Positions 757-21,051 of a stretch of DNA of 21,102 bases are shown here, piece by piece; position 1 is the first letter of the stretch, and the number at the start of each line of letters is the position of its first letter. Location of the stretch: IMG/VR virus record IMGVR_UViG_3300001097_000089, positions 1 through 21,102 of that record. The stretch is one strand, 5' to 3'. The position numbers and the translations under genes are program-made. The notes beneath the pieces were generated by a model. That model was not told where the DNA came from, did no database searches, and worked only from the letters and a program-made list of their open reading frames with translations. This DNA comes from a virus.

Positions 757-838
757 GAGCCTCAACCAACTCTTCAGCATGGCCAACATTATCTTGTTTG
801 GCCTTTTCTAAAAGTTCTTTATTCAATATATCCGCCAT
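704..838 (-). CDS. Small 44-aa protein translationally coupled to the 894-aa gene
   Basis: An ATG at 838-836 lies inside the last codons of the upstream 894-aa gene (20-bp overlap). It opens a frame of 44 codons ending in TAG at 706-704. The product starts MADILNKELLEKAKQDNVGH and continues with AEELVEALNSSADS. It is charged, helical and soluble-looking, with codon use like its neighbours. The overlapping start fits the coupled arrangement used throughout this unit. Its 3' part is antisense to the end of the 64-aa plus-strand gene, so one of the two could be spurious, though the composition supports both. Function is unknown. Confidence 0.5.
   Translation of the reverse strand: MADILNKELLEKAKQDNVGHAEELVEALNSSADSKSPEQLEKKA
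781..807 (+). terminator. Weak candidate terminator of the plus-strand unit
   Basis: Starting 24 bases after the 64-aa gene, GGCCAA (781-786) can pair with TTGGCC (798-803), giving a 6-bp stem. It is followed by TTTTC on the plus strand. The U-tract is short, and the same DNA is coding on the minus strand in the 44-aa gene, so this is tentative. Confidence 0.3.
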
Positions 839-3503
839 ATTGTTCTTTAGTTATTTTACCTTCATCTAATAATCGTTTAGCAATAGCTTTAAACTTCTCA
901 GTGAGTTCTTCTTTTGAAGGATATTTAACTTTAGCATCCATGTACTTCCTGTCAACTTCAGCCGCCTTACCAGCGCCAAGTGAATTATCAATATAGTTAA
1001 CAGTCACTCCTAGATCTTGGAGCTTGCGTACGACATCAAAAGAGTCAATATGATTTGCAGCGACAACTTTAGCTGGTACAAGACGGCCCATTTCATCTGG
1101 GTTATCTATCATACGTTTTATGACTCCATTCTCAAAAGAATCAAAAGGATCACGATACACAAAGTCAATAATAACTCTCTTTTTTGCTTTGTGAGCTTCA
1201 AATATTTTTCCTATAGCAGAATCATAGCTAGATAAATTAGAGTCAACTATCGCGGCACTATTTTTCTGAATTTTAGATAGTCTGGGGATATCTTTAATAG
1301 CAGAAGTTTTACCAGTTCCACTACCGCCAGCCATGAAGCTTACTACTGGTTGAGGATTTTTTAGTGCTTCAGTGTAAGCTTTTTTGGATAAGTAAGAAGA
1401 AGGCTCTTGTACTGCCGCTGCGTTATGTCCTACATAACCAACGTCAGAGAAGAACGGTCTAAAGCTATCGGTATTAATAACCTTACCGTGTTTGACTTTA
1501 TAATCAGCCAGTAACTTTGCTTCATTTGCAGTAATCTTAGCAAACGCTGCTTTTTCAACCTTAGAATTAGCTGTAGATAGAGTGGTGTCATTTTTGAATT
1601 TAGGAACTTCTGCTTTCTTTCCCAAGTTTATCCCCACTTGCGACTTGACCGCTTTGGGTGTAGGATTTTCAGATATGACAGTTTTAATAGGAATAGTTGT
1701 CTTACTTTGGCTAGTTTTTCGACTACCCAAGATGTTTGACTGATTTGGTTTTTTACCAAGGTCCAACACCCCAGTTTTGGGGTTTTTTGGTAGCACCACA
1801 TCTTGTATCGCTGCCTTACCTACGGCCTTTGGAGCTGTAGCGTCTAGCATTGCTTGTGACGCTGACAGTCCTTTTTGGATATCACCGCCAAGCGCCCTGC
1901 TTAGTTGACCACCTTTAATCATGCTGCCAGCTTCAGCACCCATAATAGCTCCAATCGGTCCACCAGCTAAGCCTCCCACCATAGTGCCTATTGTTTGAGA
2001 GAAGTATTTACCTAGACGGCCACCAGATACTACTTTTTTATCCAACTTCTCGACAACGTCTTTAAGGGCTAATATCCTAGACAGCTCAGTGTTAAAGCCT
2101 TTTACATCCATTATGCTTGAATTTTTCTCAACTAGTTCTTTAAAGAATCTAGCTGCTTCTTTATCTATAATATCTGAAGACGGGTTAAGGTAATTATTCC
2201 TACTACCTAGCACAATCTTGGTATCGTGTATTGTTGACAGTGGCACGTTATCACCCAAAAACTGATTGAAAGAATCAAATTGTTTAGCGATTTCTCTTTG
2301 TAGCTCAGCTTTTTGAGACGGAATTAAGCGAGAGTCATCGACAAAAGTAACCGCGTCATTTACGAGCCTGTTTAAGTTTAGGGAACTTCCCTCTTCAGCC
2401 AAAGCTTTCCGCACCTGTCCCATGTACTCAGAAGCAAAATCATCAATATTAAGGAGAGCTTGAGTTGCATCAATTCTACCGTCTGGAGTCATAGCACCAT
2501 TAAGAAGGTTTGTTTCAGACAAAACCTTTTGAGCATCCACGCCACGCTTCTCAGCTTGTTTAAAAATATTATCAATCGGACCACTCTTTGAACGTAAATC
2601 CGCAAACGCTTTTTGTCTTTTAGAAATGGTCCTAGCCTCTCCGAACTTAATGTTTTTAGTTGTCGCTCCGGCTTCAGAGAGAACCGGAATACTCCCACCA
2701 ATCAATGTACCAAGTCCGGGGATAAGAGCTTCCATCCCGTCTCGATCTTCACCTCGTAAGCCCTGAGCGCCAAGACTTACATCTGAGGCGTAACCAATAC
2801 CAGCGCCTGTAGCAATATTGCCAACACCTCTAGCGCTAAATAGCCCACCAGCTTTTTGACCGGAGATAGCCCCTAACTCTGGTAGTCCTACACCTGTAGC
2901 TAAAGCCTTGACCGGACTACCTGTAAGTCCCGGAGCTAATTTACCAACGCCCATAGCAGCTGTCTTGGCTCGATTAAAAGTACCAGCGGTCAGTAAATCC
3001 AGTGCTGTACCACCAAGCTGACCAGCGACTTGCGTTTGAGTTGGTAGCTGCACTAAGTCGCGCGCTGTCTTAGTGGTCTTATTAAGCCGGGACTCACCGT
3101 CATTATATAGTTGTTTAAGTCTGCTTGAGTCAATACCCTTAGAGTCATTATCACGAATTTGCTTAAGTAAATTTGTTTGGGTATCAAAACCAGTAGTAAT
3201 TGAGTCCTGAAGGCCACGATCTGTCTTGCTACCCTGAAAAGCAATACCAGCTAGAGTCTTACCTAGTCCAATTTCTGACGGTATTAAGTTTTCACCAAGC
3301 TTTTGACGGAAACGAGTAAAGAAACTTTTACCAGCTTCTTTGTCTATCGGAACCTGATCTTCTTGAGCGTTAGACAGTCTTTTAGCGCTCGCCTGAGCTG
3401 GACTTTGAGGTACATTAAAAGTAGGACCAGCCGGAGCCGCTGGACTAGGTGTAAAATTAATTCCACCAGAACTATTTTGTTTTGGTTTAAAATCAATAGT
3501 CAT
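819..3503 (-). CDS. Large ejection/internal virion-type protein with C-terminal zeta-toxin-like P-loop kinase domain
   Basis: This 894-residue protein is the last large gene of the virion block. The N-terminal ~50 residues are Pro/Ala/Ser-rich and disordered. Residues 160-280 and especially 505-528 are glycine-zipper-like hydrophobic stretches (GTMVGGLAGGPIGAIMGAEA) that could insert in membranes, as expected of podoviral ejection proteins. Residues 590-660 form a polar linker. Residues ~719-894 hold a kinase-like domain: beta strand PVVSFMAGGS, Walker A GGSGTGKT (726-733), AIVDSN with Asp754 where zeta toxins have a substrate-binding Asp, strand RVIIDFVYRDP (~777-786), and IDNS (~838). Zeta-type kinases phosphorylate UDP-N-acetylglucosamine or nucleotides, and phage 'polyvalent' proteins are known to carry such domains; activity here is inferred. 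It starts at a TAA-T-ATG junction with the preceding gene and has no Shine-Dalgarno sequence. Confidence 0.8.
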   Translation of the reverse strand: MTIDFKPKQNSSGGINFTPSPAAPAGPTFNVPQSPAQASAKRLSNAQEDQVPIDKEAGKSFFTRFRQKLGENLIPSEIGLGKTLAGIAFQGSKTDRGLQDSITTGFDTQTNLLKQIRDNDSKGIDSSRLKQLYNDGESRLNKTTKTARDLVQLPTQTQVAGQLGGTALDLLTAGTFNRAKTAAMGVGKLAPGLTGSPVKALATGVGLPELGAISGQKAGGLFSARGVGNIATGAGIGYASDVSLGAQGLRGEDRDGMEALIPGLGTLIGGSIPVLSEAGATTKNIKFGEARTISKRQKAFADLRSKSGPIDNIFKQAEKRGVDAQKVLSETNLLNGAMTPDGRIDATQALLNIDDFASEYMGQVRKALAEEGSSLNLNRLVNDAVTFVDDSRLIPSQKAELQREIAKQFDSFNQFLGDNVPLSTIHDTKIVLGSRNNYLNPSSDIIDKEAARFFKELVEKNSSIMDVKGFNTELSRILALKDVVEKLDKKVVSGGRLGKYFSQTIGTMVGGLAGGPIGAIMGAEAGSMIKGGQLSRALGGDIQKGLSASQAMLDATAPKAVGKAAIQDVVLPKNPKTGVLDLGKKPNQSNILGSRKTSQSKTTIPIKTVISENPTPKAVKSQVGINLGKKAEVPKFKNDTTLSTANSKVEKAAFAKITANEAKLLADYKVKHGKVINTDSFRPFFSDVGYVGHNAAAVQEPSSYLSKKAYTEALKNPQPVVSFMAGGSGTGKTSAIKDIPRLSKIQKNSAAIVDSNLSSYDSAIGKIFEAHKAKKRVIIDFVYRDPFDSFENGVIKRMIDNPDEMGRLVPAKVVAANHIDSFDVVRKLQDLGVTVNYIDNSLGAGKAAEVDRKYMDAKVKYPSKEELTEKFKAIAKRLLDEGKITKEQYGGYIE

Positions 3504-6808: not shown

Positions 6809-6843
6809 ACATTTACTTTAACAATAATAGTTTTTTTGTGGAA
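6809..6843 (-). promoter_or_regulatory. Late promoter, leaderless type, for the tail/ejection unit
   Basis: On the minus strand TTCCACA (6843-6837) is followed after 16 bases by TAAAGT (6820-6815), then six bases, then ATG. The same arrangement precedes the portal, 84-aa and 288-aa genes. Aligned without gaps, this element and that of the 84-aa gene share most positions over 39 bases. There is no Shine-Dalgarno sequence. Confidence 0.65.
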
Positions 6844-6846
6844 TTA

Positions 6847-8733
6847 TTAGCGAGTTCTTGTTGGTAGATTTTTCCGGCCTTTGTCTCTAATGTCTTTGAA
6901 AGTGATTGAGTTTATCGAAGCGTAACCAACTCCTTTAGCTACAGCTCTTACTCTGATATGAGTAAAACGGTCCGTATTTAGCTTAAAGTCTACCTCATAA
7001 GGTGAAGCTGAAGAGTCACCACCACCACCAACTACTGTGCTACCGATAGTAGGCGCTCCGATAGAAACATCAATCCCTGAGTCAACATAATCAGCATTAC
7101 CCTCGATAGTAAAGACGTTTACAAAAGCCCTGCCATTAGTTGATATTTCAATACCAATAGATTGCTCAGTCTGAATCAGCCCATCAAGTACCATTCTCCG
7201 ACATGTCTTTAAGTTCTCAGTATCTAAGTCCAGGTCACTAGTAGTCCAGTAGTTCTCGATAACATCGCCATCCTCATCAAAGCCTGAGAATAGAATATAG
7301 GCGTTGTTAGATATTGAGTCTCCAGCAATCAGTAGACCGTTGTATTCAACCAAGCAAGAGACGTAGTAATTCAACTTATCCCAAGTCTGAGATACTGTGT
7401 TGAAAATAAAAGTGACTGAGTTGAAAGTATCAATAATACCTAGCGTCTTTTTCTGGACCGCAAATATCTCATAATCACCCCAGCGATAAGCCACACACTT
7501 ACCATGTCCGTATGGTGAGAGGTCCAAAGCGTCTGAAAACGACAGTGGCTCAATAGTATTGATATCAGTACCCTGCAACACTTTCATCTTGCGGTACTTG
7601 GGCTCATTAGGGTTAGCCAAGTCAGCCATGATGATACCGTCTGGAGTCTGGTGTGCTGCCCTTGAATTAGGAATACCAACATTACGATACTCTAAGTTGG
7701 TACTTTGAGTATCGTCAAGCGTAGACTGAAACTGCCAAGTCTTTGATCGGTGGAAACAATAATTAGTGGTACTGATATTGAAAATCGCCATCAAGTTACC
7801 GCCACCGTTATCTTGTCTGAAAGACTTACCTTGACCATTAAGCCCACCAGTGAAGTCTAATATCCCTGTAGTAGTAGCTGTCTCATGGTAGTAGCTGGCG
7901 GTAATATTTTGAAGATTTGTCACAGCGGCTGCGAAAGTAACTGAGATAGCTCCGGTAGCGTAGTTGATAGTTCCAGTACCACCAGCGCTCCCCTCTAAGT
8001 TACCATTACGATCATCTATAAAACTCTCAGTGCCATCGGTCACGGCGACATACATTAAAGTCTTACCGGCTCCGACTACGTTTAGAGTGTCCGTAAATGT
8101 AACCAAAGCACCGTTCCCAACACCTACAACCTCCCCTGTAACCTGTGTGAAGTCGCTCAGCTGGTCTTTGTCGATATATGATAGATATAGACCTGTTTCG
8201 TCATTATTCCCCGCTACAGTACCATTTCGCTGACCTGCGAAGCTTCTATTCTTTCCGATATGGAAAGCTCCCCAGCGATAGTTGTTGACCACCTGGTCCA
8301 CCGCGCTTCCAGGATTAGCCACTGGTATTTTGTAAACACTAGAGTTAGCTGAGCCGATATATATAAAACTTCCGGCCAGTGCTTGATAGGCTCGCATCCA
8401 GACTTGATCGTTGGCGGCAGCGGCTGGTAATAAATTGTTTCCAACCTCTATATTGTCATCCGTAGCGACATTATAATACTTAACCTTGCGCCCGTGAGAA
8501 AACCAGAGTCGTTCAACCCCGTCATAACCGACACCAACACCAAGTCCCGTGACTTCACCAGCTCCGACAACTTCAGTAGCCCCTAAGCGGGTATAACCAC
8601 GCCTTAGTTCAATAGAGTCTCGGAACTTACTAGTTACCCAGTTCAAAGAGTCCGGGCTTGTACCAGGCTTAAGTGTTTTCTTATCGCGTATGGCTGTATT
8701 TAGTCCAAAAAATTGATCTATTTTATAGTCCAT
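6847..8733 (-). CDS. Tail nozzle / stabilisation-type protein, beta-propeller-like
   Basis: This 628-residue protein starts MDYKIDQFFGLNTAIRDKKT and soon contains SPDSLNWVTSKFRDSIELRR followed by GYTRLG. That opening ('...SPDslN...lrrGytrl') is the common signature of podoviral nozzle/tail-needle-platform proteins. The body is almost all beta, with repeated aromatic/Gly strands (LWFSHGRKVKYYNV, SFIYIGSANSSVYKIP) consistent with propeller blades. The C-terminus is basic (KGRKNLPTRTR). It follows the adaptor gene with a one-base gap (TAA-T-ATG), as expected for adaptor and nozzle made together. It likely forms the hexameric tail tube tip below the adaptor ring. Confidence 0.7.
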   Translation of the reverse strand: MDYKIDQFFGLNTAIRDKKTLKPGTSPDSLNWVTSKFRDSIELRRGYTRLGATEVVGAGEVTGLGVGVGYDGVERLWFSHGRKVKYYNVATDDNIEVGNNLLPAAAANDQVWMRAYQALAGSFIYIGSANSSVYKIPVANPGSAVDQVVNNYRWGAFHIGKNRSFAGQRNGTVAGNNDETGLYLSYIDKDQLSDFTQVTGEVVGVGNGALVTFTDTLNVVGAGKTLMYVAVTDGTESFIDDRNGNLEGSAGGTGTINYATGAISVTFAAAVTNLQNITASYYHETATTTGILDFTGGLNGQGKSFRQDNGGGNLMAIFNISTTNYCFHRSKTWQFQSTLDDTQSTNLEYRNVGIPNSRAAHQTPDGIIMADLANPNEPKYRKMKVLQGTDINTIEPLSFSDALDLSPYGHGKCVAYRWGDYEIFAVQKKTLGIIDTFNSVTFIFNTVSQTWDKLNYYVSCLVEYNGLLIAGDSISNNAYILFSGFDEDGDVIENYWTTSDLDLDTENLKTCRRMVLDGLIQTEQSIGIEISTNGRAFVNVFTIEGNADYVDSGIDVSIGAPTIGSTVVGGGGDSSASPYEVDFKLNTDRFTHIRVRAVAKGVGYASINSITFKDIRDKGRKNLPTRTR

Positions 8734-8734
8734 A

Positions 8735-9430
8735 TTAATCTCTATTTATTGCACCGTTCCTATGTTGTGACCCAAGGTAATCAGTCGGATCGTTATGGAC
8801 CAACTCTGATTGTTGTAGCTCATCATCCCATTTTTCAAGAGCTTTCTTCAAGATGTCCATAGTGTTGTAGTGACTAACAGACATTTTCGCTGATATGCTG
8901 TCGTAGTCAACTCCTCCAGCAAAAATCCCCATAGCATAAAAGCCTAGCAACGGTAAGAAGCGCTTAGGAAACTGAGTCCAGACCGCCGTCTCGAGAGCAA
9001 GATCAATATCCGGGCTAGTCGCTATATAATTTAAATACAAAGTCCCACCGAAAGGCACGTTGCCATTAAAGTAAAGCTGGTTATTGTACAAGTCGTGACA
9101 AAAAGTGTTTGATACATCTTTGTAGTCCAAGCGTCTATCAAAAGGCACTTGGTTGAAGCAATCGACTCGATTGTCACCGTCAAAAACTCTTATTGGTTCT
9201 CTTGAGTGAAACCTAGAGAAATCAGTGACCCCGGCTAGACTTACAGGAGCATTAGCCCCGGCAAACACACTCAAATCTGTGTTGGTACGTCTCAAAGCCA
9301 TCCAAGGACGTTCTTCTTCAATTACTGTCTTAGCGTTATCAATCAAAACCTCAAGTAGTGATAAGTCAATAGCTGCATCAGCATTTAGCCCGGTAATGAA
9401 AGTGTTTAATTGTGCGCCTGTAGTTAACAT
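8735..9430 (-). CDS. Head-to-tail adaptor (tail tubular A / gp4-like)
   Basis: This 231-residue protein has helical N- and C-terminal parts: residues 18-50 include LLEVLIDNAKTVIEEERPWM, and 170-215 include HYNTMDILKKALEKWDDEL. A beta-rich middle (FNQVPFDRRLDYKDV, LYFNGNVPFGGTLYLNYIA) lies between them. This fits the adaptor ring between portal and nozzle in podoviruses. Length (about 200 residues in T7- and P22-type adaptors) and position directly before the nozzle gene agree. The family assignment rests on architecture and context rather than a strong motif. It starts one base after the preceding stop. Confidence 0.6.
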   Translation of the reverse strand: MLTTGAQLNTFITGLNADAAIDLSLLEVLIDNAKTVIEEERPWMALRRTNTDLSVFAGANAPVSLAGVTDFSRFHSREPIRVFDGDNRVDCFNQVPFDRRLDYKDVSNTFCHDLYNNQLYFNGNVPFGGTLYLNYIATSPDIDLALETAVWTQFPKRFLPLLGFYAMGIFAGGVDYDSISAKMSVSHYNTMDILKKALEKWDDELQQSELVHNDPTDYLGSQHRNGAINRD

Positions 9431-9431
9431 A

Positions 9432-10298
9432 TTATTTTACGAATTTTCTTAAATCAAAAGGTGGCTTGCTTTCAGCCTCGACAGTGGCCTTTGATTTTCT
9501 TTTAACTGGATGAACCTTTGTCTCATGGACGTATTCAGTGCTGGAAACAGCCTCTTCCATCGTGTCAACAATGAGTTTTGATAGTGTTTTTATGGATTCA
9601 TCAAGCTTGTTATCAATAGCTATCATTTTCTCCTCCACAAACTGACCAAGGTCATCAACCTCAGCCACAATATCAGTGAGGTCAGTCGCTTCAGTCACCG
9701 GCTTCTCATCAATTGAATTAGCTAGGTTCTGGATTCCCTCTAACACTGGAAATAGGTCCACTTCTTTCCGTTCTGACATTCTTTTCAAATCAGCCATCAT
9801 CCGGCCCACATTCTCGGCTGTAAGAGTAATAGCGTCACCATAGTCAGTAACCTTTGGCATTTCAGGGAATTCAATAGGCGCTGGCACTTCTTTTCCTGCT
9901 TCATTTTCATCTAAAACAGCCTTAACCACTCGCTTAATATCAAACAAGTCGAAGTTCACGCCACCACCCTGCGAACCGCCACCGCGATTAGCGACAAAGT
10001 CATAAATGAGATAAGTGTTTTCTTCATCCCCATAGTTATTGCTCTTAGTCGTGTACCCGCTGTCAGTGTAAACAGAAGTGACTATAGAAATATAAGTGCC
10101 TTGTCCAGAACGATCAACTGGCACTCGATAACGCTTTTGAAAGCGCTGACCTCCGAGACTAGTTAGATTAACAGTGTCAAGAGTATTACCATCAGCATCC
10201 CGGACAATCGCTTGGACGTAGTAAGTACCAGCATCTAAGTGGTTACTTATTTGACGTACTATTGGAAAGTCTTTTTGGGGAGCTAGAGTTGGTGACAT
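9432..10298 (-). CDS. Virion-associated protein with beta-sandwich N-terminus and coiled-coil C-terminus
   Basis: This 288-residue protein has an N-terminal ~110 residues that look like a beta-sandwich (AGTYYVQAIVRDADGNTLDT, VDRSGQGTYISIVTSVYTDS, SNNYGDEENTYLI). A Gly-rich linker (NRGGGSQGGG) and acidic helices of coiled-coil type follow at about 160-250, then a basic tail (HPVKRKSKATVEA...FDLRKFVK). From memory the 'SGQGTYISIVTSVYTDSGYT' stretch recurs in uncultured, Patescibacteria-like phages. It could be a head decoration, head-tail joining or tail-tip protein; the sequence does not decide. It heads the transcription unit with adaptor and nozzle and has a leaderless-type promoter. Confidence 0.55.
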   Translation of the reverse strand: MSPTLAPQKDFPIVRQISNHLDAGTYYVQAIVRDADGNTLDTVNLTSLGGQRFQKRYRVPVDRSGQGTYISIVTSVYTDSGYTTKSNNYGDEENTYLIYDFVANRGGGSQGGGVNFDLFDIKRVVKAVLDENEAGKEVPAPIEFPEMPKVTDYGDAITLTAENVGRMMADLKRMSERKEVDLFPVLEGIQNLANSIDEKPVTEATDLTDIVAEVDDLGQFVEEKMIAIDNKLDESIKTLSKLIVDTMEEAVSSTEYVHETKVHPVKRKSKATVEAESKPPFDLRKFVK

Positions 10299-10334
10299 AA
10301 TAGTATTCTATAATTTTCATTAAATAATGTGGAA
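10299..10334 (-). promoter_or_regulatory. Late promoter, leaderless type, for the 288-aa/adaptor/nozzle unit
   Basis: On the minus strand TTCCACA (10334-10328) is followed after 17 bases by TAGAAT (10310-10305), then six bases, then ATG. It has the same geometry as the portal, 84-aa and 507-aa gene promoters. Confidence 0.65.
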
Positions 10335-10341
10335 TATTACC

Positions 10342-10369
10342 GGGCTAATCCCAGCCCCGAAGGGCTGAG
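10342..10369 (-). terminator. Strong UUCG hairpin after the capsid gene, possible attenuator or partial terminator
   Basis: On the minus strand the RNA would fold CTCAGCCC-UUCG-GGGCTGGG (10369-10350), 8 bp with one G-U pair and the very stable UUCG loop, about 18 bases after the capsid stop. No U-tract follows. The next bases, ATTAGCCC, allow an alternative pairing of GGGCT with AGCCC (10346-10342). A partial terminator, an RNA-end stabiliser or a processing site for the capsid mRNA are all possible. Confidence 0.5.
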
Positions 10370-10387
10370 TTAACCTACTAATTAAAG

Positions 10388-11668
10388 TTAGTTAGAAGTG
10401 AACGCTGGAGCAGAGTAAGCGGTTGAGAGGATTGACGCTGCAACAATTTGTGGAGCTTGGTCTGTGAAGACCTTGATTCCGTAAACTGTCCAAGCGATAT
10501 AATCTTTACCAATTTTACCTGACACTGAGTTCTCTTGCAGAGACGGATTCTTTTGGATAACCAAAGAAACTGACTTTGTAAGAGCGAAGATAGCCCGGCT
10601 GATTTCTTTACCAACTGTAAAGATGTTACCAGATGCGGTGAAAGCTTCGGTTACTTCAACAGTACCCTTGCCTGAAGAAACAAGTGTTAGAAGATTAGTC
10701 GCTGCGTCATAAGCAGCTGTAATATTCTTTAGTTTTCTTCGATTGGCGACACTAAGCGCGATGTATGTTGAAACACCAGGAGTTCCAGTACCGTTAATCA
10801 AAGCTTCGAGGTTAGCTCCAGCTAAGTCAACTGTAGTACTGATAGAGTAACCACCAGCTCCGGCAGCAGCTCCGTTGGCATCAGCCTCAAGAGATACACC
10901 GTTGATAGTCATTAGATCTCCAGCAGTAGGGATAGTTGGCAACTCAAGAGTTGCGGTCCAAGCTAGTGAGTTAGAGATGAATACTTCAAACCCGTGGAAG
11001 TAACCACCGTAACCGTTTCGAGAGATTTGATCTCCAAGCATTGTTGCTTTACCACCAAGGTAAAGTTCAATAGCTGTAAGAATCTCTGGAGAAACAATAG
11101 CAATTGGCATACCTTCAGGTACTTCAATCTTCATTCCGGCTGAAGCAGTAAATCGCTTGTTGTAAACAACATTATTCAGTCGTAGCTTCTGCATAGCAGT
11201 AGCGAACAGAGTTGGTACGTTGGTACTAGTTACAGCGTAACCATTACCAGCGACACCAGCGAAACTACCATCATCAAGAGTTGTACCAGCTCCTTGATAA
11301 GCTGCCAAAAGAACGTCACCGTCAATTTGGTTAACTAGGGCATTACCTAGTTTTTGACCATACTTCTTACGAAGTGGTAAGTGAGCTTGCAACTCATCAA
11401 GAGACTTGATGTAGATAGAAGCTTCTTTTTCCTTATTGATAACAAGAGTTTCTTGTGTATCATTAATGGCTTGGGTTGAATAACTACCGTCTCCACCCAT
11501 GTCATTGACGTGAACGTCAGACGCGAATGATCGAGCGATAGTTTGTCCTTTTGTAAGGGACGCTTCAAGACGAGAGTCAGCGAGGATCTGGTATACAGGT
11601 TCTCGGTAGTGACTCATTTGGTATTCCGCTTGGAATACTGTCTTGAAAGTCATTGTATTAGGGTTCAT
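10388..11668 (-). CDS. Major capsid protein, HK97 fold with inserted domain
   Basis: This 426-residue protein has the order expected of a coat protein. The N-arm is followed by GQTIARSF and MGGDGSYSTQAINDTQETLV (58-77). A spine-helix region follows (DELQAHLPLRKKYGQKLGNA, 91-110), then an E-loop/P-domain part and a C-terminal strand (GKIGKDYIAWTVYGIKVFTD, 384-403). From memory this closely matches capsid proteins of uncultured podoviruses. Residues ~241-352 (from LELPTIPTAG to ASGNIFTVG) look like a separate beta domain inserted in the fold. It contains GDLMTINGVSLEA and NLEALINGTGTPGVSTYIAL. The start at 11668 is used; a second ATG at 11653 (Met6) is an alternative. A hairpin follows the stop. 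Confidence 0.85.
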   Translation of the reverse strand: MNPNTMTFKTVFQAEYQMSHYREPVYQILADSRLEASLTKGQTIARSFASDVHVNDMGGDGSYSTQAINDTQETLVINKEKEASIYIKSLDELQAHLPLRKKYGQKLGNALVNQIDGDVLLAAYQGAGTTLDDGSFAGVAGNGYAVTSTNVPTLFATAMQKLRLNNVVYNKRFTASAGMKIEVPEGMPIAIVSPEILTAIELYLGGKATMLGDQISRNGYGGYFHGFEVFISNSLAWTATLELPTIPTAGDLMTINGVSLEADANGAAAGAGGYSISTTVDLAGANLEALINGTGTPGVSTYIALSVANRRKLKNITAAYDAATNLLTLVSSGKGTVEVTEAFTASGNIFTVGKEISRAIFALTKSVSLVIQKNPSLQENSVSGKIGKDYIAWTVYGIKVFTDQAPQIVAASILSTAYSAPAFTSN

Positions 11669-11682
11669 GGAATTAGTGGAAA

Positions 11683-11688
11683 ATTATA
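11683..11688 (-). promoter_or_regulatory. Perfect -10 box (TATAAT) upstream of the capsid gene
   Basis: TATAAT on the minus strand (11688-11683) lies 14 bases before the capsid ATG, just after the scaffold stop. The predicted RNA leader would be only about 7 bases. A clear -35 box is not visible, and TTCCACA is absent at the usual distance, so this unit differs from the other late promoters. Confidence 0.45.
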
Positions 11689-11700
11689 AACCTCAGTGAG

Positions 11701-12585
11701 TTAGATGAGTATTCGGCGGCCTTCTGCATCCGTATGTAACGAATCGCTCGAAGTCGCTTTTTGATATTCTTTATGCCACGCCTCTGACTCCTTATCAGAC
11801 ATCTGAGATAGATCTGCATTTGGGTTAAACTCGAAAGCTTTAACCTCTGGAACATCCAGCGCCCTCTTAGACTCTAGCCCACGTTTTTGCGGGGAAACTA
11901 AAGCCTTGAGAGTGTCCTGGTTCTTAAATGCAATATAATCAATCTCTTTGTCATGGTAAGCATCAGAGTGAGCTAGTTTATCAAGGGCTGCTTTGAGGAC
12001 CTTAGTTTCTTCTGGATTAGCGTTAGTAAACAGTTTTCCTAGAGTCGGTAGTGCGTTTTCAAATTCCTTATCAAACTGCACTTGACTAACGGCTTCGTTG
12101 TTTGTCTTTTGCCAATCTTGAAATTCTTTAAGTTGTTTACTATGCTCTTCTGAAAACTCGCTTTTTGGAGCATTTTTCAAGAACAGCGCTTGCATCCTTT
12201 TTAAAGTCGCTGGATCAGCGTCAATTTCTTTTGCAAAAGCTTCTAGGTCCTCATCATCCGTGGCTTTCGCCGGGACATCAAGCTTGGCTCTTAACTCATC
12301 TCTCTCTCGTTCCGCACTTTCACGTAGCTCTCTCTCAGTTTTGACATCTTGACGAGTGTCCTTCAGAGACTGGTAGATAGAACGCTTCTTTGCAACGGCC
12401 TGAGGTTCGGGTATTAAAGTTGGTTCAACGTCTTCCTTAGCTTTAGGCTCAACTACCACTACAGGCTCTGGGATGACCTCAGGCACTACAACTGGCGTTT
12501 CTTCTAAAGGCTTAGGTTCGGCTTCTGGTGGTAACTCCACTCCCGCTGCCTTATAAGCGTCAAAAGCTTCTTTTTCTGGGTCCAT
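11701..12585 (-). CDS. Scaffolding protein
   Basis: This 294-residue, highly charged protein lies immediately upstream of the capsid gene, the normal place of the scaffold. Its N-terminal ~65 residues are rich in Pro, Glu and Val (PEAEPKPLEETPVVVPEVIP). A coiled-coil region follows at about 75-105 (DVKTERELRESAERERDELR) and helical stretches thereafter. No enzymatic motif and no protease signature is seen. The role inferred is to nucleate and shape the procapsid. The gap to the capsid start is 32 bases and contains the capsid -10 box. Confidence 0.75.
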   Translation of the reverse strand: MDPEKEAFDAYKAAGVELPPEAEPKPLEETPVVVPEVIPEPVVVVEPKAKEDVEPTLIPEPQAVAKKRSIYQSLKDTRQDVKTERELRESAERERDELRAKLDVPAKATDDEDLEAFAKEIDADPATLKRMQALFLKNAPKSEFSEEHSKQLKEFQDWQKTNNEAVSQVQFDKEFENALPTLGKLFTNANPEETKVLKAALDKLAHSDAYHDKEIDYIAFKNQDTLKALVSPQKRGLESKRALDVPEVKAFEFNPNADLSQMSDKESEAWHKEYQKATSSDSLHTDAEGRRILI

Positions 12586-12727
12586 AATGATTTTTATTTA
12601 TATTGCCTCAGTATCACCGAGGTATAAGTATTGTAGTGGCCTTATTTCACTTGCTACTGTAATTTCCCGTAGCCGGTAAAAGCGCTGTTGCGTCTTTTAG
12701 ACAAGGCCTGTGAAGGCCCTGACTAAA
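12586..12727 (-). other. 142-bp structured intergenic leader before the scaffold gene
   Basis: On the minus strand this gap holds GGCCT-TCAC-AGGCC (12718-12705), a short palindrome GTCT-AAA-AGAC, and CCTCGG-TGATA-CTGAGG (about 12623-12607) followed by AATATAAAT. The first hairpin may terminate or slow transcription after the 84-aa gene, although its U-tract is poor. The AT-rich stretch next to the scaffold ATG may hold a promoter, but the TTCCACA element of the other units is absent. No reading frame of note was found. Confidence 0.4.
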
Positions 12728-12982
12728 CTAGACAACCTTTCCGTTCTTCTTTCCTGCGAACTCCTTAGCTAGATCAGCGAAAGCTTCACCATGCACTTCT
12801 CTTGTGTAGGTTCGCTTTCCACCTGACCAGACCACTGAGGCTTCTGACTTGGCTTCCTTAGCTGCTTTAGCTGCTTCTTTAGCGGCTGCGGCTGCTACCT
12901 TTGCTGCGTCTGCTTCTACCCGAGCTGCTTCTTTAGCGGCTGCGGCTGCTTTTACTTCTGCTTCATTATTTGTATTTGTCAT
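12728..12982 (-). CDS. Small Ala/Lys-rich helical protein
   Basis: The 84 residues consist of a long Ala-Lys-Glu helix (residues ~8-48, repeats of AAAAKEAA type) and a conserved-looking C-terminal part (VVWSGGKRTYTREVHGEAFA). The helix is made by internal duplication. It resembles histone H1/TolA-like low-complexity helices. It has its own strong leaderless-type promoter, between the portal unit and the scaffold. This suggests it is needed in quantity, perhaps as a minor capsid, decoration or internal protein. I do not recognise a family. Confidence 0.65.
   Translation of the reverse strand: MTNTNNEAEVKAAAAAKEAARVEADAAKVAAAAAKEAAKAAKEAKSEASVVWSGGKRTYTREVHGEAFADLAKEFAGKKNGKVV
12870..12950. 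repeat. Perfect 27-bp direct repeat within the Ala/Lys-rich gene
   Basis: Identical 27-base copies lie at 12870-12896 and 12924-12950, exactly 54 bp (two repeat lengths) apart, with a degenerate copy between. All keep the reading frame and encode Ala/Lys/Glu helix turns. This is an in-frame coding duplication. Confidence 0.85.
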
Positions 12983-13017
12983 AAATTTATATTAACAATC
13001 ACTTCTTTTTTGTGGAA
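12983..13017 (-). promoter_or_regulatory. Late promoter, leaderless type, for the 84-aa gene
   Basis: On the minus strand TTCCACA (13017-13011) is followed after 16 bases by TAATAT (12994-12989), then six bases, then ATG. It fills the whole 38-bp gap between the 122-aa stop and the 84-aa start. Confidence 0.65.
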
Positions 13018-13020
13018 TGT

Positions 13021-13389
13021 TTAACTTCCAAAAAGTGATATTTGCTGACTAATTTCTCGATTCAACTGCTTGATTTGATTACTTGCGTCCCCACCCATTA
13101 CCTCAAAGATAAGGGAGCAAGCGTCTTTTTTAGCGAATAGTGAAGCTCTCTCTGAGTCTGTTAAATGTTTGCCTGTAGCAAGCACCATCGAGGCACTAAG
13201 GTACTCTTGATTAAACCTAGTAAGAATTTTTAAAGTGATATCATGCTTCTGCCACTCACTAAGAGCTTCGTGTTGTATCAACTCAAGTTCCCAGCGCTGA
13301 ATTTCTCCAAGATTATGTTGGTACGATTCATCATCGACATCAGAGCCTGTGAGAAATACCTCTTTTGCTTTATCAATTAAAGTTGACAT
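13021..13389 (-). CDS. Hypothetical helical protein co-translated with the portal
   Basis: This 122-residue, almost entirely helical protein includes LGEIQRWELELIQHEALSEW in its first third and SERASLFAKKDACSLIFEVM near the end. It has no enzymatic motif and no transmembrane segment. Its ATG overlaps the portal stop (TAATG), so the two are translationally coupled. A virion-assembly role next to the portal is likely, but I do not recognise the family. Confidence 0.65.
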   Translation of the reverse strand: MSTLIDKAKEVFLTGSDVDDESYQHNLGEIQRWELELIQHEALSEWQKHDITLKILTRFNQEYLSASMVLATGKHLTDSERASLFAKKDACSLIFEVMGGDASNQIKQLNREISQQISLFGS

Positions 13390-15458
13390 TATATTCCAGA
13401 TTCATTAACCATATTCATGGCTCGACTTGCGCCACCGGATAGTCCCGGGTTATCAGCCGGAGCCGGCGCTGGAGCTGGAGCCATGCCTGAAGTAGCGTCA
13501 ACTTCAGCGCCCATTTGTTTCTTTTGAAGCTCCACTGACTGCTCAATCATTTGCCTGTCAATATTTGCCTTAGCAATCTCTTGGTGAGCCATCGCGTAGT
13601 CAATCAGTATCTTGTACTTGTCTTTCAACTTAGATTGTTTGTCTGAAGCAAAGTCTACAATCTTCTGCATAAAAGCCACGGTAGCGCCACCCCATAGTTC
13701 CGGCTTCTTACCTCTAATGATAGCCTGGATAGATTCTGAAGCCTTAGATAATGACTTCTTGTCATTGTAAGTCTTAAGGTCTTGAGCCTGAGCAATCTCA
13801 TCATCCTCAAATTCACCAACAGACCGGAGGATTTGCTCATTACGCCAGCTGGCATTAATAGTGTTTGGATCGAGCATACCCAGTGCTTTTGCTCGCCGCT
13901 CAGCTTTCATTTCACTGTCTGACTGTTGCTGATCGGTTGACCGGATAAGAATATTTACATCCTTAGTGGTATTCAAGTCCATTCGAGTAATCTCATCCCA
14001 TTCGTAACCAGACTCACCAAGTAGCTGAATCGCCATCTTAGCCGGCATGTGGTTCTTGAGTCCCCAGATAAACCGCTGACCAAGGTCCCCTATCATGTCC
14101 TGGAACGGTTGCGCTCCCCATCCGATACGCTTAGACACTGACTTCTGCTCAGCGAAAGTTACTGAAGCAAGCTTACTAGCGTCCTGAGTTCCACCCATAG
14201 CTAAATCAGTCGCTCCGGTGTTACGGCCTAGTGAGCCTGTGATCCAGTCAATAAGATTCACCGTACCACCAAGCTCACCAACCTTAAACTCATAGATACC
14301 TTCTCCAATACGTCTCGTACCGCCCTTAGTATCCACCGGAACCAAAGCGTCTGGCCGGTGCATCGACTCATCCAGTTTCCGAACGTCTGTAAACATTTCC
14401 TTGTCGTAAGCTCTTGCGGTGTAGTTCTTCTTCTCACGATTTGTTAACTCTTGGTTGAACATCGCTACAATCGCATCTGAAGCAGCATAAATATCGTCCC
14501 CGTATGCCTTCGAGAGAAAGTTCTCACTATCCTCATGGGTAGCGTAAGTCACATACGGCATCAAGTCTGACTCATCAACATCAGCCCAGCACTCGAAACG
14601 GACCCAAATCTTAGTCCGGGGATCAAAGACAATCACGTAACGCTTACCATCAATCTCTAAAATTTGCTGACATAGCTTGTATACTTGATGTCCAACGTAA
14701 GAGTGGTTATCAGCATCAAGTCCGAGTGGTCTGAAGCGGTCTAGTCTAGTCAGTGCATCAGACGTGTGTTTAGCTTCTAGGTACTCACTATTGCTAGCGC
14801 TAGAAATAAGCTCCTTCACTTTTTCCTTATCGTAAATACCGTTTTTAGCACCTTCAACCAGGTCATACTGAGAACGCTGAATATCCTCAGTCCCAGCAAA
14901 CAAATGATTCTCTAAGTAAAGACCACCGCGCGGCTGAAAGTTAAAGTCTTTTAAAAGTACGTTGTTTAACTCTGATTTATACTTAGGATCTGAAGTCGTG
15001 CTGTATTCCAAGACGGCTCGCCCAGTCATAATAGCGTGCTTTCTAGCCATTCTCAGCTTAGGGTCCCACTTACTATTTTGAGCCGTATTCATTACCTCCA
15101 TTCTCCAAGCACCATTAATCTTTTGTGTCTGAAAATAGTCAGCTGCGTCACCGGCTTCAAACTCTAAAAAGATACCAGTGTCATACTGAGCATTAAGAGT
15201 GTCAATCATCCCGGGAAATACTGGGATTGGCACGTTAAATAGCTGTCGTATTTTCTTTGGAACGTGACCATCGTAGAGGTGATAGAACTTAGAGATAGTC
15301 TTTAGTCGTGGAGCCTTGAAGTCGCCACAAGCCATAACCTGTAGAGTAGCCAAGTTAACCGCCTGGTCAGCTAGATCTCTCTTGGACATGTTTTTATAAC
15401 GTGACTCAAGATTTAACAGCGCGTCTTCGGACTCCTCTTCTTTATAAGTTGCGTTCAT
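13389..15458 (-). CDS. Portal protein, podovirus type
   Basis: This 689-residue protein has the length of podoviral portals. The N-terminal helical part is followed by FYHLYDGHVPKKIRQLFNVP, then a wing region (residues ~130-330), and a stem/crown region with long helices (MIGDLGQRFIWGLKNHMPAK and, near the end, IDRQMIEQSVELQKKQMG). The C-terminus is a Pro/Ala tail (APAPAPAPADN). The GGTQDASKLASVTFAEQKSV stretch resembles the tunnel-loop region of portal proteins. Position after terminase and before scaffold and capsid supports the call. It forms the dodecameric DNA entry ring. It opens a unit with the 122-aa gene behind a leaderless-type promoter that overlaps the end of the preceding zinc-protein gene. 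Confidence 0.85.
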   Translation of the reverse strand: MNATYKEEESEDALLNLESRYKNMSKRDLADQAVNLATLQVMACGDFKAPRLKTISKFYHLYDGHVPKKIRQLFNVPIPVFPGMIDTLNAQYDTGIFLEFEAGDAADYFQTQKINGAWRMEVMNTAQNSKWDPKLRMARKHAIMTGRAVLEYSTTSDPKYKSELNNVLLKDFNFQPRGGLYLENHLFAGTEDIQRSQYDLVEGAKNGIYDKEKVKELISSASNSEYLEAKHTSDALTRLDRFRPLGLDADNHSYVGHQVYKLCQQILEIDGKRYVIVFDPRTKIWVRFECWADVDESDLMPYVTYATHEDSENFLSKAYGDDIYAASDAIVAMFNQELTNREKKNYTARAYDKEMFTDVRKLDESMHRPDALVPVDTKGGTRRIGEGIYEFKVGELGGTVNLIDWITGSLGRNTGATDLAMGGTQDASKLASVTFAEQKSVSKRIGWGAQPFQDMIGDLGQRFIWGLKNHMPAKMAIQLLGESGYEWDEITRMDLNTTKDVNILIRSTDQQQSDSEMKAERRAKALGMLDPNTINASWRNEQILRSVGEFEDDEIAQAQDLKTYNDKKSLSKASESIQAIIRGKKPELWGGATVAFMQKIVDFASDKQSKLKDKYKILIDYAMAHQEIAKANIDRQMIEQSVELQKKQMGAEVDATSGMAPAPAPAPADNPGLSGGASRAMNMVNESGI

Positions 15459-15494
15459 AACTGTATATTAAAAAATCACCTCTGTTTTGTGGAA
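15459..15494 (-). promoter_or_regulatory. Late promoter, leaderless type, for the portal unit
   Basis: On the minus strand TTCCACA (15494-15488) is followed after 17 bases by TAATAT (15470-15465), then six bases, then ATG. The -35-like part is inside the last codons of the 93-aa gene. A GAGGTGA sequence here is Shine-Dalgarno-like but lies about 20 bases from the ATG, too far to act normally. Confidence 0.65.
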
Positions 15495-15757
15495 TTAGGA
15501 TCGCGATAATGCGCCATCAGACACCTATGACAAGCCCCTTTTGCCTTGTGATCCACCATGCTAAAAGGAATACTGCAAAAGATACACCGACCAGACTTAT
15601 TAAACTTAGGGTTATTGGGCTTCTCAGAATAAAAACAATGAGGGCAAGGTGTGTATTGAATTGCTAATATTAATGCGTCGCTGTTACGTTTAATCTTAGG
15701 AATATCAAAGAGCTTCTCACATCGCTCACACCTCTTGCGTAAAGGTTGACTAGCCAT
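15476..15757 (-). CDS. Double zinc-ribbon protein
   Basis: This 93-residue protein has four CxxC knuckles: CERC near residue 10, CPHC near 38, CIFC near 58 and CHRC near 76. They suit two zinc ribbons, each made of two knuckles. The N-terminus (KRCERCEKLFDIP) looks like the zinc ribbons found in nucleic-acid binding proteins. Its start overlaps the end of the 67-aa gene by 8 bases. It ends with TGA. It could bind DNA or RNA or tether terminase, but nothing in the sequence decides. Confidence 0.65.
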   Translation of the reverse strand: MASQPLRKRCERCEKLFDIPKIKRNSDALILAIQYTPCPHCFYSEKPNNPKFNKSGRCIFCSIPFSMVDHKAKGACHRCLMAHYRDPNSTKQR

Positions 15758-15953
15758 TTAAAGGACTTTCATAAGGTGCTTGAATAAACTCTTCTTTACA
15801 TCCACTAGGACACTGATAACCATGCACTTTGTCAAGTATACATTGTTTTTGGTGGTACAAAACCCTACATTGTTTACAACGGAAATAGTTATCTCTGTTT
15901 TTATCTTCAGAGTAATCCTCAGCTTGGTTCTCTACGTTTTGCCATGATTCCAT
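15750..15953 (-). CDS. Small zinc-ribbon protein
   Basis: The 67 residues contain CKQC, a further Cys-His pair (YHQKQC) and CPSGC, consistent with one zinc-binding site or a zinc ribbon. The N-terminus is acidic. It overlaps the 81-aa gene by 22 bases and the 93-aa gene by 8 bases, so the three are co-translated. Family and function are unknown. Confidence 0.6.
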   Translation of the reverse strand: MESWQNVENQAEDYSEDKNRDNYFRCKQCRVLYHQKQCILDKVHGYQCPSGCKEEFIQAPYESPLNG

Positions 15954-16177
15954 ATCTTTTTTTGATGACTACTAGTTAAGTGAAAGTGCTTACAACCTTT
16001 GATTGGACATTTATAAACTCTTAAGTAAACAACGGCTCCATAAGATACCTGCGACAACCGGACTCGTTCGGCTTCATGTTTGGTTTTATATGAAATCTTG
16101 CCCTTAACACAACGGGGTAAGGATGGTTTGAAATCAACCTCTCGTTTTCTAAACCTCTTTTTACCGACAGGAGTCAT
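15932..16177 (-). CDS. Small basic protein with C-x4-C-x2-H-x-H zinc-finger motif
   Basis: The 81 residues start with a strongly basic region (VGKKRFRKREVDF). A helix with KTKHEAERVRLSQ follows, then YLRVYKCPIKGCKHFHLTSS, whose Cys and His residues fit a zinc finger. From memory, very similar 'YkCp...C..wHlts' mini-proteins are common in phages. It begins two bases after the large terminase stop (TAA-CT-ATG). DNA or RNA binding is plausible. Confidence 0.65.
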   Translation of the reverse strand: MTPVGKKRFRKREVDFKPSLPRCVKGKISYKTKHEAERVRLSQVSYGAVVYLRVYKCPIKGCKHFHLTSSHQKKIWNHGKT

Positions 16178-18349: not shown

Positions 18350-18356
18350 TACTTTA

Positions 18357-18365
18357 ATAATATCA
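18357..18365 (-). promoter_or_regulatory. Extended -10 promoter of the terminase unit
   Basis: On the minus strand TGA-TATTAT (18365-18357) is an extended -10 element seven bases from the small-terminase ATG. AAGCACA lies 17 bases upstream of the hexamer and partly resembles the TTCCACA of the late promoters. A leaderless or near-leaderless mRNA is expected. Confidence 0.55.
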
Positions 18366-19117: not shown

Positions 19118-19123
19118 GGCTAA

Positions 19124-19129
19124 ATTGTA
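19124..19129 (-). promoter_or_regulatory. -10-like box directly before the 157-aa gene
   Basis: TACAAT on the minus strand (19129-19124) is one base off TATAAT and lies six bases from the ATG, the same distance as in the late promoters. The nearby TTCCACA (19160-19154) is 24 bases from it, too far for a -35 box, and is better read as part of a DnaA-box-like site. Confidence 0.5.
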
Positions 19130-19153: not shown

Positions 19154-19162
19154 TGTGGAAAA
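19154..19162 (-). promoter_or_regulatory. DnaA-box-like site TTTTCCACA
   Basis: The nine bases TTTTCCACA on the minus strand match the relaxed bacterial DnaA-box consensus TTWTNCACA. The site lies at the edge of the repeat cluster next to the helicase gene. A single nine-base match is weak by itself. Confidence 0.4.
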
Positions 19163-19248
19163 CTTTTACGGGCCTATTGACAACTACCAAATAGTATCGT
19201 AGTGACGAGTGACAACTTTTTTCAACTCCAGCGGGATATGTAATACTC

Positions 19249-19286
19249 TTATTATTATTATTATTATTATATATATATAAAAAAAA
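19249..19286. repeat. AT-only tract: TTA triplet repeat, AT dinucleotides and A-run
   Basis: About seven TTA units (19249-19270) run into alternating AT and then an A-run, 38 bases without G or C. It lies inside the repeat cluster, where a DNA-unwinding element of an origin would be expected. Confidence 0.7.
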
Positions 19287-19424
19287 GTTGTCATCTTGTC
19301 ACCAATTCATCTCCCAGCCTTACTATTAGCCATATAATCGGTGACAACTTTGCCCTAAAGTTGTCACCAAGTTGTCATTTTTGCCCTAAAGTTGTCACCT
19401 TTTGCCCTTTTTTGCCCAAAATAC

Positions 19425-19456
19425 AAAAAAAACAGCTCTATTGACTTAGGGCTGTT
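19425..19456 (-). terminator. Rho-independent terminator of the helicase gene
   Basis: On the minus strand AACAGCCCTA (19456-19447), loop AGTCAA, and TAGAGCTGTT (19440-19431) form a 10-bp stem with one G-U pair. It is followed by a run of eight T residues, two of them shared with the stem base. It lies about 70 bases after the helicase stop, inside the repeat cluster. On the plus strand the stem is followed by TATATTG and would not terminate. Confidence 0.8.
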
Positions 19457-19524
19457 TATATTGTGGTGACAACTTTCAGTGACAACTTCAAAATAAAGTT
19501 GTCACCGCTTACGCAAGCCATTTT

Positions 19525-21036: not shown

Positions 21037-21042
21037 TCCGCA

Positions 21043-21051
21043 ATCATAGCA
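21043..21051 (-). promoter_or_regulatory. Extended -10 promoter directly before the helicase gene
   Basis: On the minus strand TGC-TATGAT (21051-21043) lies six bases before the ATG, with no Shine-Dalgarno sequence. This matches the leaderless spacing seen elsewhere. Further upstream TTGTCCACA (21089-21081) is one base off the DnaA box TTATCCACA. Confidence 0.5.

Follow-up and report, generated by a model that had tools for sequence, protein, structure and literature searches.

The window analysed here, 21,102 bases with 43% G+C, corresponds to an entire viral record, in which profile matches identified a primase-helicase, a terminase, a major head protein and a tail-fibre-like gene, and in which Rfam gave no match. 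A 689-aa gene was named portal in the preliminary description; its position after the terminase is what suggests the name here, and comparison of this putative portal protein with annotated phage records gave no match. Three small genes for Cys-containing proteins lie beside it, and promoter-like sites are distributed along the minus strand (Table 1). Through the putative portal and the major head protein, many relatives were found in IMG/VR, and one more (L034) in a genome bin. The comparison set comprised 34 phages, among them the window, for which the portal leader could be read, and the phage contigs were often fragments. The group is little known and is linked to tiny Patescibacteria.

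Table 1. Promoter-like sites and small Cys-containing genes of the window (positions of the whole stretch)
Feature	Position	Strand	Description
507-aa tail protein, putative late promoter	6809..6843	-	Block TTCCACAAA 6843-6835, -10 TAAAGT 6820-6815, 6 nt, ATG 6808; fills a 38-nt non-coding gap
288-aa gene, promoter-like site	10299..10334	-	TTCCACA(TT) 10334-10326, -10 TAGAAT 10310-10305, 6 nt, ATG 10298
84-aa gene, putative late promoter	12983..13017	-	Block TTCCACAAA 13017-13009, -10 TAATAT 12994-12989, 6 nt, ATG 12982; counterpart in relatives
Portal, putative late promoter	15459..15494	-	Block TTCCACAAA 15494-15486, 15-nt spacer, -10 TAATAT 15470-15465, 6 nt, ATG 15458; geometry and block conserved in relatives
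Zn93	15476..15757	-	93 aa, two CxxC/CxxC zinc ribbons; candidate block reader; predicted C-terminal helix at residues 77-85
Zn67	15750..15953	-	67 aa, Cys-rich, conserved family; alternative or partner reader candidate
81-aa Cys-containing small protein	15932..16177	-	Few relatives
Small terminase, host-type extended -10	18350..18365	-	TGA TATTAT (TGATATTAT), 7 nt, ATG 18349
157-aa gene, -10-like box	19118..19129	-	TACAAT, 6 nt, ATG 19117; neither TGn nor block
Fifth TTCCACA, as TTTTCCACA	19154..19162	-	Resembles a DnaA box; lies in the origin-like gap and is not a late promoter
Helicase, host-type extended -10	21037..21051	-	TGC TATGAT (TGCTATGAT), 6 nt, ATG 21036

The window's five copies of TTCCACA are confined to the minus strand (6837-6843, 10328-10334, 13011-13017, 15488-15494 and 19154-19160). 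The bare word is not unusual (3.3 copies expected; at least five in 23 of 100 shuffles). The composite TTCCACA-N16/17-TAnnnT-N5/7-ATG, on the other hand, occurs four times on the minus strand, each time before a gene, with 0.01 copies expected and none of the shuffles reaching four. The gap between TTCCACA and the hexamer is 16 nt at the 507-aa and 84-aa genes and 17 nt at the 288-aa gene and portal, and at all four sites the TAnnnT box stands 6 nt from the ATG, within the 5-7 nt used to define a leaderless-promoter box. The preliminary description had reported this element before four minus-strand genes, with the hexamers TAAAGT, TAGAAT, TAATAT and TAATAT, gaps of 16-17 and a 6-nt ATG distance, and all of this was confirmed in the sequence, as were the -10-like boxes that it gave for the helicase (TATGAT, 6 nt), the 157-aa gene (TACAAT, 6 nt) and the small terminase (TATTAT, 7 nt). 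It had also placed minus-strand TTCCACA at the four leaders and once in the origin-like gap, exactly where the five copies lie, and the shuffling check that it proposed for the two-block motif put the frequency far above that of shuffled sequence. The fifth copy has no -10 at promoter spacing. No counterpart of the site at the 288-aa gene (TTCCACATT) was seen before the matching gene of the relatives compared, whereas the portal, 84-aa-region and tail sites do recur; the former is either a gain in the window phage or chance. Genes internal to the late operons have neither such a promoter nor an obvious Shine-Dalgarno site.

Across the relatives, the place of the element is constant and its word varies. 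A 9-nt block precedes the portal -10 in 33 of the 34 phages, at a spacing of 15 nt in 27 and 14 nt in six, while the distance from the -10 to the ATG is 6 nt (11 phages), 7 nt (17), 8 nt (one) or 9 nt (four), that is, 6 or 7 nt in 28 of the 33. The conserved unit is about 9 nt long and ends 14-15 nt upstream of the -10. Its common frame is nnnnAC(A/G)AA (e.g., TTCCACAAA, CGCCACAAA, TGCGACAAA, CGTAACATA, CGCTACGAA and CGTGACAAG), in which the final letters are near-constant and the first four and the seventh are variable. TTCCACA itself is common to four mutually closest phages, including the window, and is not found in the others. The preliminary description had stated that loss of the element in related phages would speak against it: the word TTCCACA is indeed lost, but the element is kept with another word. 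The fixed spacing between block and -10, combined with an ATG distance that drifts from 6 to 9 nt, is what a promoter, and not a translation signal, would be expected to show, and this sustains the earlier claim of promoters with a predicted start on or next to the ATG. The further claim of a phage-specific element in the -35 region is likewise upheld by the block at the same place in 33 of the 34 phages; counted from a start at the ATG, this element would look to sit at about -36 to -28. By position it agrees with a T4 middle-type activator box in the place of the -35, a likeness of working and not of descent, with binding being putative. A TTGACA-like -35 at a spacer of 16-18 nt was not found; the words retain ACA only, and the rest varies by phage. 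The nine distant phages L071, L126-L129, L135-L137 and L139 show no clear block by eye, and several of them still encode a Cys-rich protein before portal.

The late -10 is also unlike the host -10, with TATAAT or TATACT present in 1 of 44 late promoters versus 43 of 98 host leaders. We considered that the block could replace a TGn element; this agrees with the tail promoters (TGn in 1 of 13) but not with the portal promoters (16 of 31), whose TGn is in part supplied by the TGA stop codon of the preceding gene.

Within one phage, the block recurs at portal, the tail gene and a third gene (the 84-aa region). For example, c28361 has TGCGACAAA at both portal and the tail gene, L034 has CGTAACATA at portal, the third site and the tail gene, and L041 and L008 have CGCTACGAA and CACCACACA, respectively, three times each. 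When extra sites were counted on the coding strand (at most one mismatch, a -10 at the right spacing, the portal site itself excluded), a phage's own words gave 39 and foreign words 4.0, with the own words giving 3 on the opposite strand. Among the 13 phages with both leaders readable, the portal word matches the tail word of its own phage at 8.2 of 9 letters and that of another phage at 6.7, and 0 of 200,000 permutations were as good (p ~1e-5). The portal -10 of L041 was out of register in this permutation test, an error that lowers the observed identity and thus makes the test conservative. The late promoters of one phage therefore behave as one regulon. In the 1.2-Mb bin that contains L034, its block CGTAACATA with a -10 has four matches, three of which are inside the 16.7-kb phage contig, and the other family genomes have 0-2 copies, not above the reversed control; the L034 word is thus largely confined to phage DNA within the host bin.

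What is conserved in the element is DNA. In the window and its relatives, the tail promoter, with its own block, fits tightly into a non-coding gap, 32-39 nt long. The portal block shares sequence with the 3' end of the Zn93 gene, read in a frame that differs between phages (TCC ACA AAA in the window, CGC CAC AAA in c15360). Block and -10 are also retained at the third promoter, that of the 84-aa gene family, but in most relatives its predicted start does not coincide with an ATG; leaderlessness is thus no constant property of the element.

Of the neighbouring genes, Zn93 is the one kept most consistently: a member of its family is found directly upstream of portal in every phage of the set whose contig covers that stretch. 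Neither Pfam nor PHROGs gave a confident match to Zn93, and Ogr_Delta (PF04606) gave none at E<=0.1. Its AlphaFold model (mean pLDDT 87.5) predicts that the C-terminal helix follows the last ribbon and carries residues 77, 81 and 85 on the same face; Foldseek and VIA searches with this model returned no solved fold that matches clearly. As modelled, residues 77/81/85 could form a recognition helix. In the homologues of L032 and L056 (RC to RD) and of L046 (C to S), the last ribbon has one cysteine fewer, and block position 4 is T there.

Covariation was scanned between block positions and 791 alignment columns of five co-inherited proteins, with correction for portal distance, and p values were obtained by simulating characters on the portal tree (791 columns × six block positions). 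These tests replaced a first scan (30 shuffles, no tree correction), in which residue 81 was not among the top columns for position 4; the method was thus changed after a first look, and the Zn93 residues named below were picked post hoc. After distance correction, residue 81 of Zn93 is the top-ranked of the 791 columns for block position 4, and tree simulation gave p=0.0007 each for residues 81 and 77 against position 4, p=0.012 for residue 85 against position 7 and p=0.0003 for residue 71 against position 2. The top columns for positions 2, 4 and 7 are Zn93 residues 71, 81 and 83. At p<=0.005 there were 7 of 426 tests for Zn93, versus 18 of 4,062 for portal, the large terminase and a 122-aa protein together (0.44%, nominal 0.5%); for Zn67 there were 4 of 258, a small excess that concerns positions 1 and 3. 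At position 4, G goes with R/K at residue 81 (5/5) and C with M/Q in all cases, A goes with M/Q except for R in L057, and T goes with R, R, V, I and Q. A strict independent-pairs test for position 4 had only two informative pairs, residue 81 ranks 14th when G is tested versus the rest, and positions 1, 3 and 9 are led by columns of Zn67 and the 122-aa protein instead of Zn93. Moreover, the Zn93 gene adjoins the portal block, and recombination could carry both together. Judged from these patterns, Zn93 is the foremost candidate for the reader of the block, at somewhat less than an even chance, and Zn67 might be its partner.

Combined with the above analysis, these sites are probably phage-specific late promoters of the activator type, read by a phage-encoded factor, for which Zn93 is the most likely choice. 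For transcription start, timing, gene order, binding and the identity of the reader, we infer the following. Early in infection, the host polymerase would use host-type extended -10 promoters to express the helicase, the terminase and the small zinc proteins. Later, a phage zinc protein, most likely Zn93 via its C-terminal helix, would bind the block at about -36 to -28 and replace the sigma contact with the -35, at the promoters serving portal, the 84-aa region and the tail. The bound reader would recruit the host polymerase, which would read the -10 TAnnnT and begin transcription about 7 nt beyond it, on or beside the ATG. As a counter-point, about half of the portal promoters contain TGn and could work without an activator. 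A further, more speculative proposal, to which we would give well under an even chance, is that the late programmes are mutually insulated, each lineage having its own 9-nt password and a matching zinc-ribbon reader with a helix-to-base code (residue 81 to position 4; R/K with G, M/Q with C). If true, phages in a shared tiny host would not turn on each other's late genes.

The alternative that survives best keeps the same promoters and assigns them to another reader, namely Zn67, the 122-aa protein, a region-4-like phage protein or a gene beyond the contigs. Zn67 has its 4 of 258 tests at p<=0.005 for positions 1 and 3, the 122-aa protein comes out on top when keto and amino bases are contrasted at position 4, weak region-4-like matches below the curated cut-off occur in 3 of 14 records, and fragmentary contigs may omit the gene concerned. 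Nevertheless, Zn93 leads positions 2, 4 and 7 among the 791 columns and the window contains no region-4-like match, so that we regard another reader as a sizeable possibility, though a smaller one than Zn93.

The connection of the window to a host is made via its relative L034, which belongs to MAG nzgw467, placed by its authors in the Paceibacteria family UBA5272 and reported by them to have three prophages (PMC12455944). L034 is a separate contig in this bin, integration was not seen, and host identity rests on the published bin name because no 16S was found in the bin. The host sample of about 0.8 Mb was drawn from the L034 bin and other family members (L061-L070 and L072-L120). Upstream of 608 host-family genes, TGnTAnnnT was found 56 times at exactly 6 nt before the ATG and 12-17 times at 7-9 nt, with no other distance exceeding 8 and most having 1-5; Shine-Dalgarno-like words precede about 7% of the genes. 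Judging by this sequence pattern, the linked host family seems to use leaderless-type starts as its default, and they appear to be common there; starting at the ATG was probably not invented by the phages. The helicase and small terminase promoters of the window are of this host type. The preliminary description had envisaged a special phage programme of leaderless mRNAs, and this part is not supported: the linked host family has the same 6-nt geometry, the third promoter of most relatives lacks an ATG where the start is predicted, and operon-internal genes lack such a promoter. We found nothing on leaderless transcription in Patescibacteria among open-licence papers. UBA5272, with many apparent ATG starts, an extended -10 and no -35, bears on transcription and translation initiation in reduced bacteria. 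The second contig of the host bin, L071 / L060 (G001:C23), encodes a protein distantly related to the major head protein and has a 104-aa frame whose region-4-like match is strong; on L071, a Cys-rich protein precedes a portal-like gene, and no clear block is present.

These host leaders also bear on whether the block is simply a -35 read directly by host sigma, with words that differ because hosts differ. The block would lie at about -36 to -28, with a 17-nt spacer its constant ACA falls on that of TTGACA, and the linked host bin encodes sigma proteins with region 4. However, no -35 signal was found in the host leaders with a box at 6 nt (TTGACA-like words in 20 of 98 at normal spacing versus 16 and 18 at the control spacings), the L034 block is almost restricted to the phage contig, and the variable letters are those over TTG, where constancy would be expected under a conserved sigma. 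Direct reading by host sigma is thus unlikely. Even less probable is an RNA processing or replication element that is no part of a promoter: the portal block does lie in transcribed DNA and contains ACA, but its distance to the -10 is fixed while that to the ATG is variable, and the third promoter retains block and -10 even where its predicted start is not an ATG. Reading by a host regulator, for instance DnaA, might be invoked from the likeness of TTCCACA to the 3' portion of a DnaA box, and TTTTCCACA in the origin-like gap of the window is one base off the DnaA box; the words of other phages at the same place (CGTAACATA, CGCTACGAA and TGCGACAAA) are unlike it, which makes this reading highly improbable. 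The origin-like gap (19208-19506) also holds repeated GTGACAACTTT / AAAGTTGTCACC words in both orientations. A pattern arising from chance or protein-coding conservation, for which the overlap of the portal block with the 3' end of the Zn93 gene could be cited, can be practically dismissed given the 0.01 copies expected for the composite, the 39 versus 4.0 sites, the non-coding tail promoter and the differing portal frames.

The activator-type arrangement proposed here shares traits with several known systems. In T4 middle promoters, the MotA box replaces the -35 in conjunction with AsiA (PMC7403470). Both systems have a phage-specific box in the -35 place and a host-type -10, with a small phage protein as the reader (here proposed); in our case, however, lineages have different words, a zinc-ribbon protein is the candidate reader, the predicted starts fall on the ATG, and the genes are late rather than middle. 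Neither MotA nor AsiA was among the Pfam matches of the window proteins scanned, records that are possibly incomplete. P2 late promoters are under Ogr/Delta control at TGT-N12-ACA sites (PMC3931495); they are alike in that a handful of late promoters have a common site and a small Cys4 zinc protein as activator (here a candidate), and unlike in that the block here is a contiguous 9 nt at the -35 place. In 14 phage records, Ogr_Delta (PF04606) gave nothing over the cut-off (best E 0.0024, in one record). Since no Ogr_Delta match exceeded the cut-off and MotA/AsiA were missing from the matches of the scanned proteins, we do not file the system as a member of either the T4-middle or the P2-Ogr type. 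Bacterial leaderless genes have a TANNNT about 12 bp upstream of the start codon (PMC3160421), and the phages and the linked host family share this -10-to-ATG distance; in contrast, the phage late promoters add their own block, whereas the host family uses a TGn extended -10.

As far as can be told, a lineage-specific word across a phage's late promoters, with a zinc-ribbon candidate and in a Patescibacteria-linked setting, is new. For Patescibacteria-linked phages it provides a late-gene switch open to testing, in a group whose gene regulation has had little experimental study, and the approximately 20 promoter words with candidate matching readers constitute a natural series for decoding DNA recognition by small zinc proteins. 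Elsewhere in the window, the plus-strand gene at the left end (11-517), whose 5' end is cut at the window edge, resembles phrog_37844 of unknown function (E 8.9e-24). Residues 714-748 of the 894-aa late-operon protein (819-3503) match the Zeta_toxin model (E 8.5e-6), which likely reflects a P-loop motif only.
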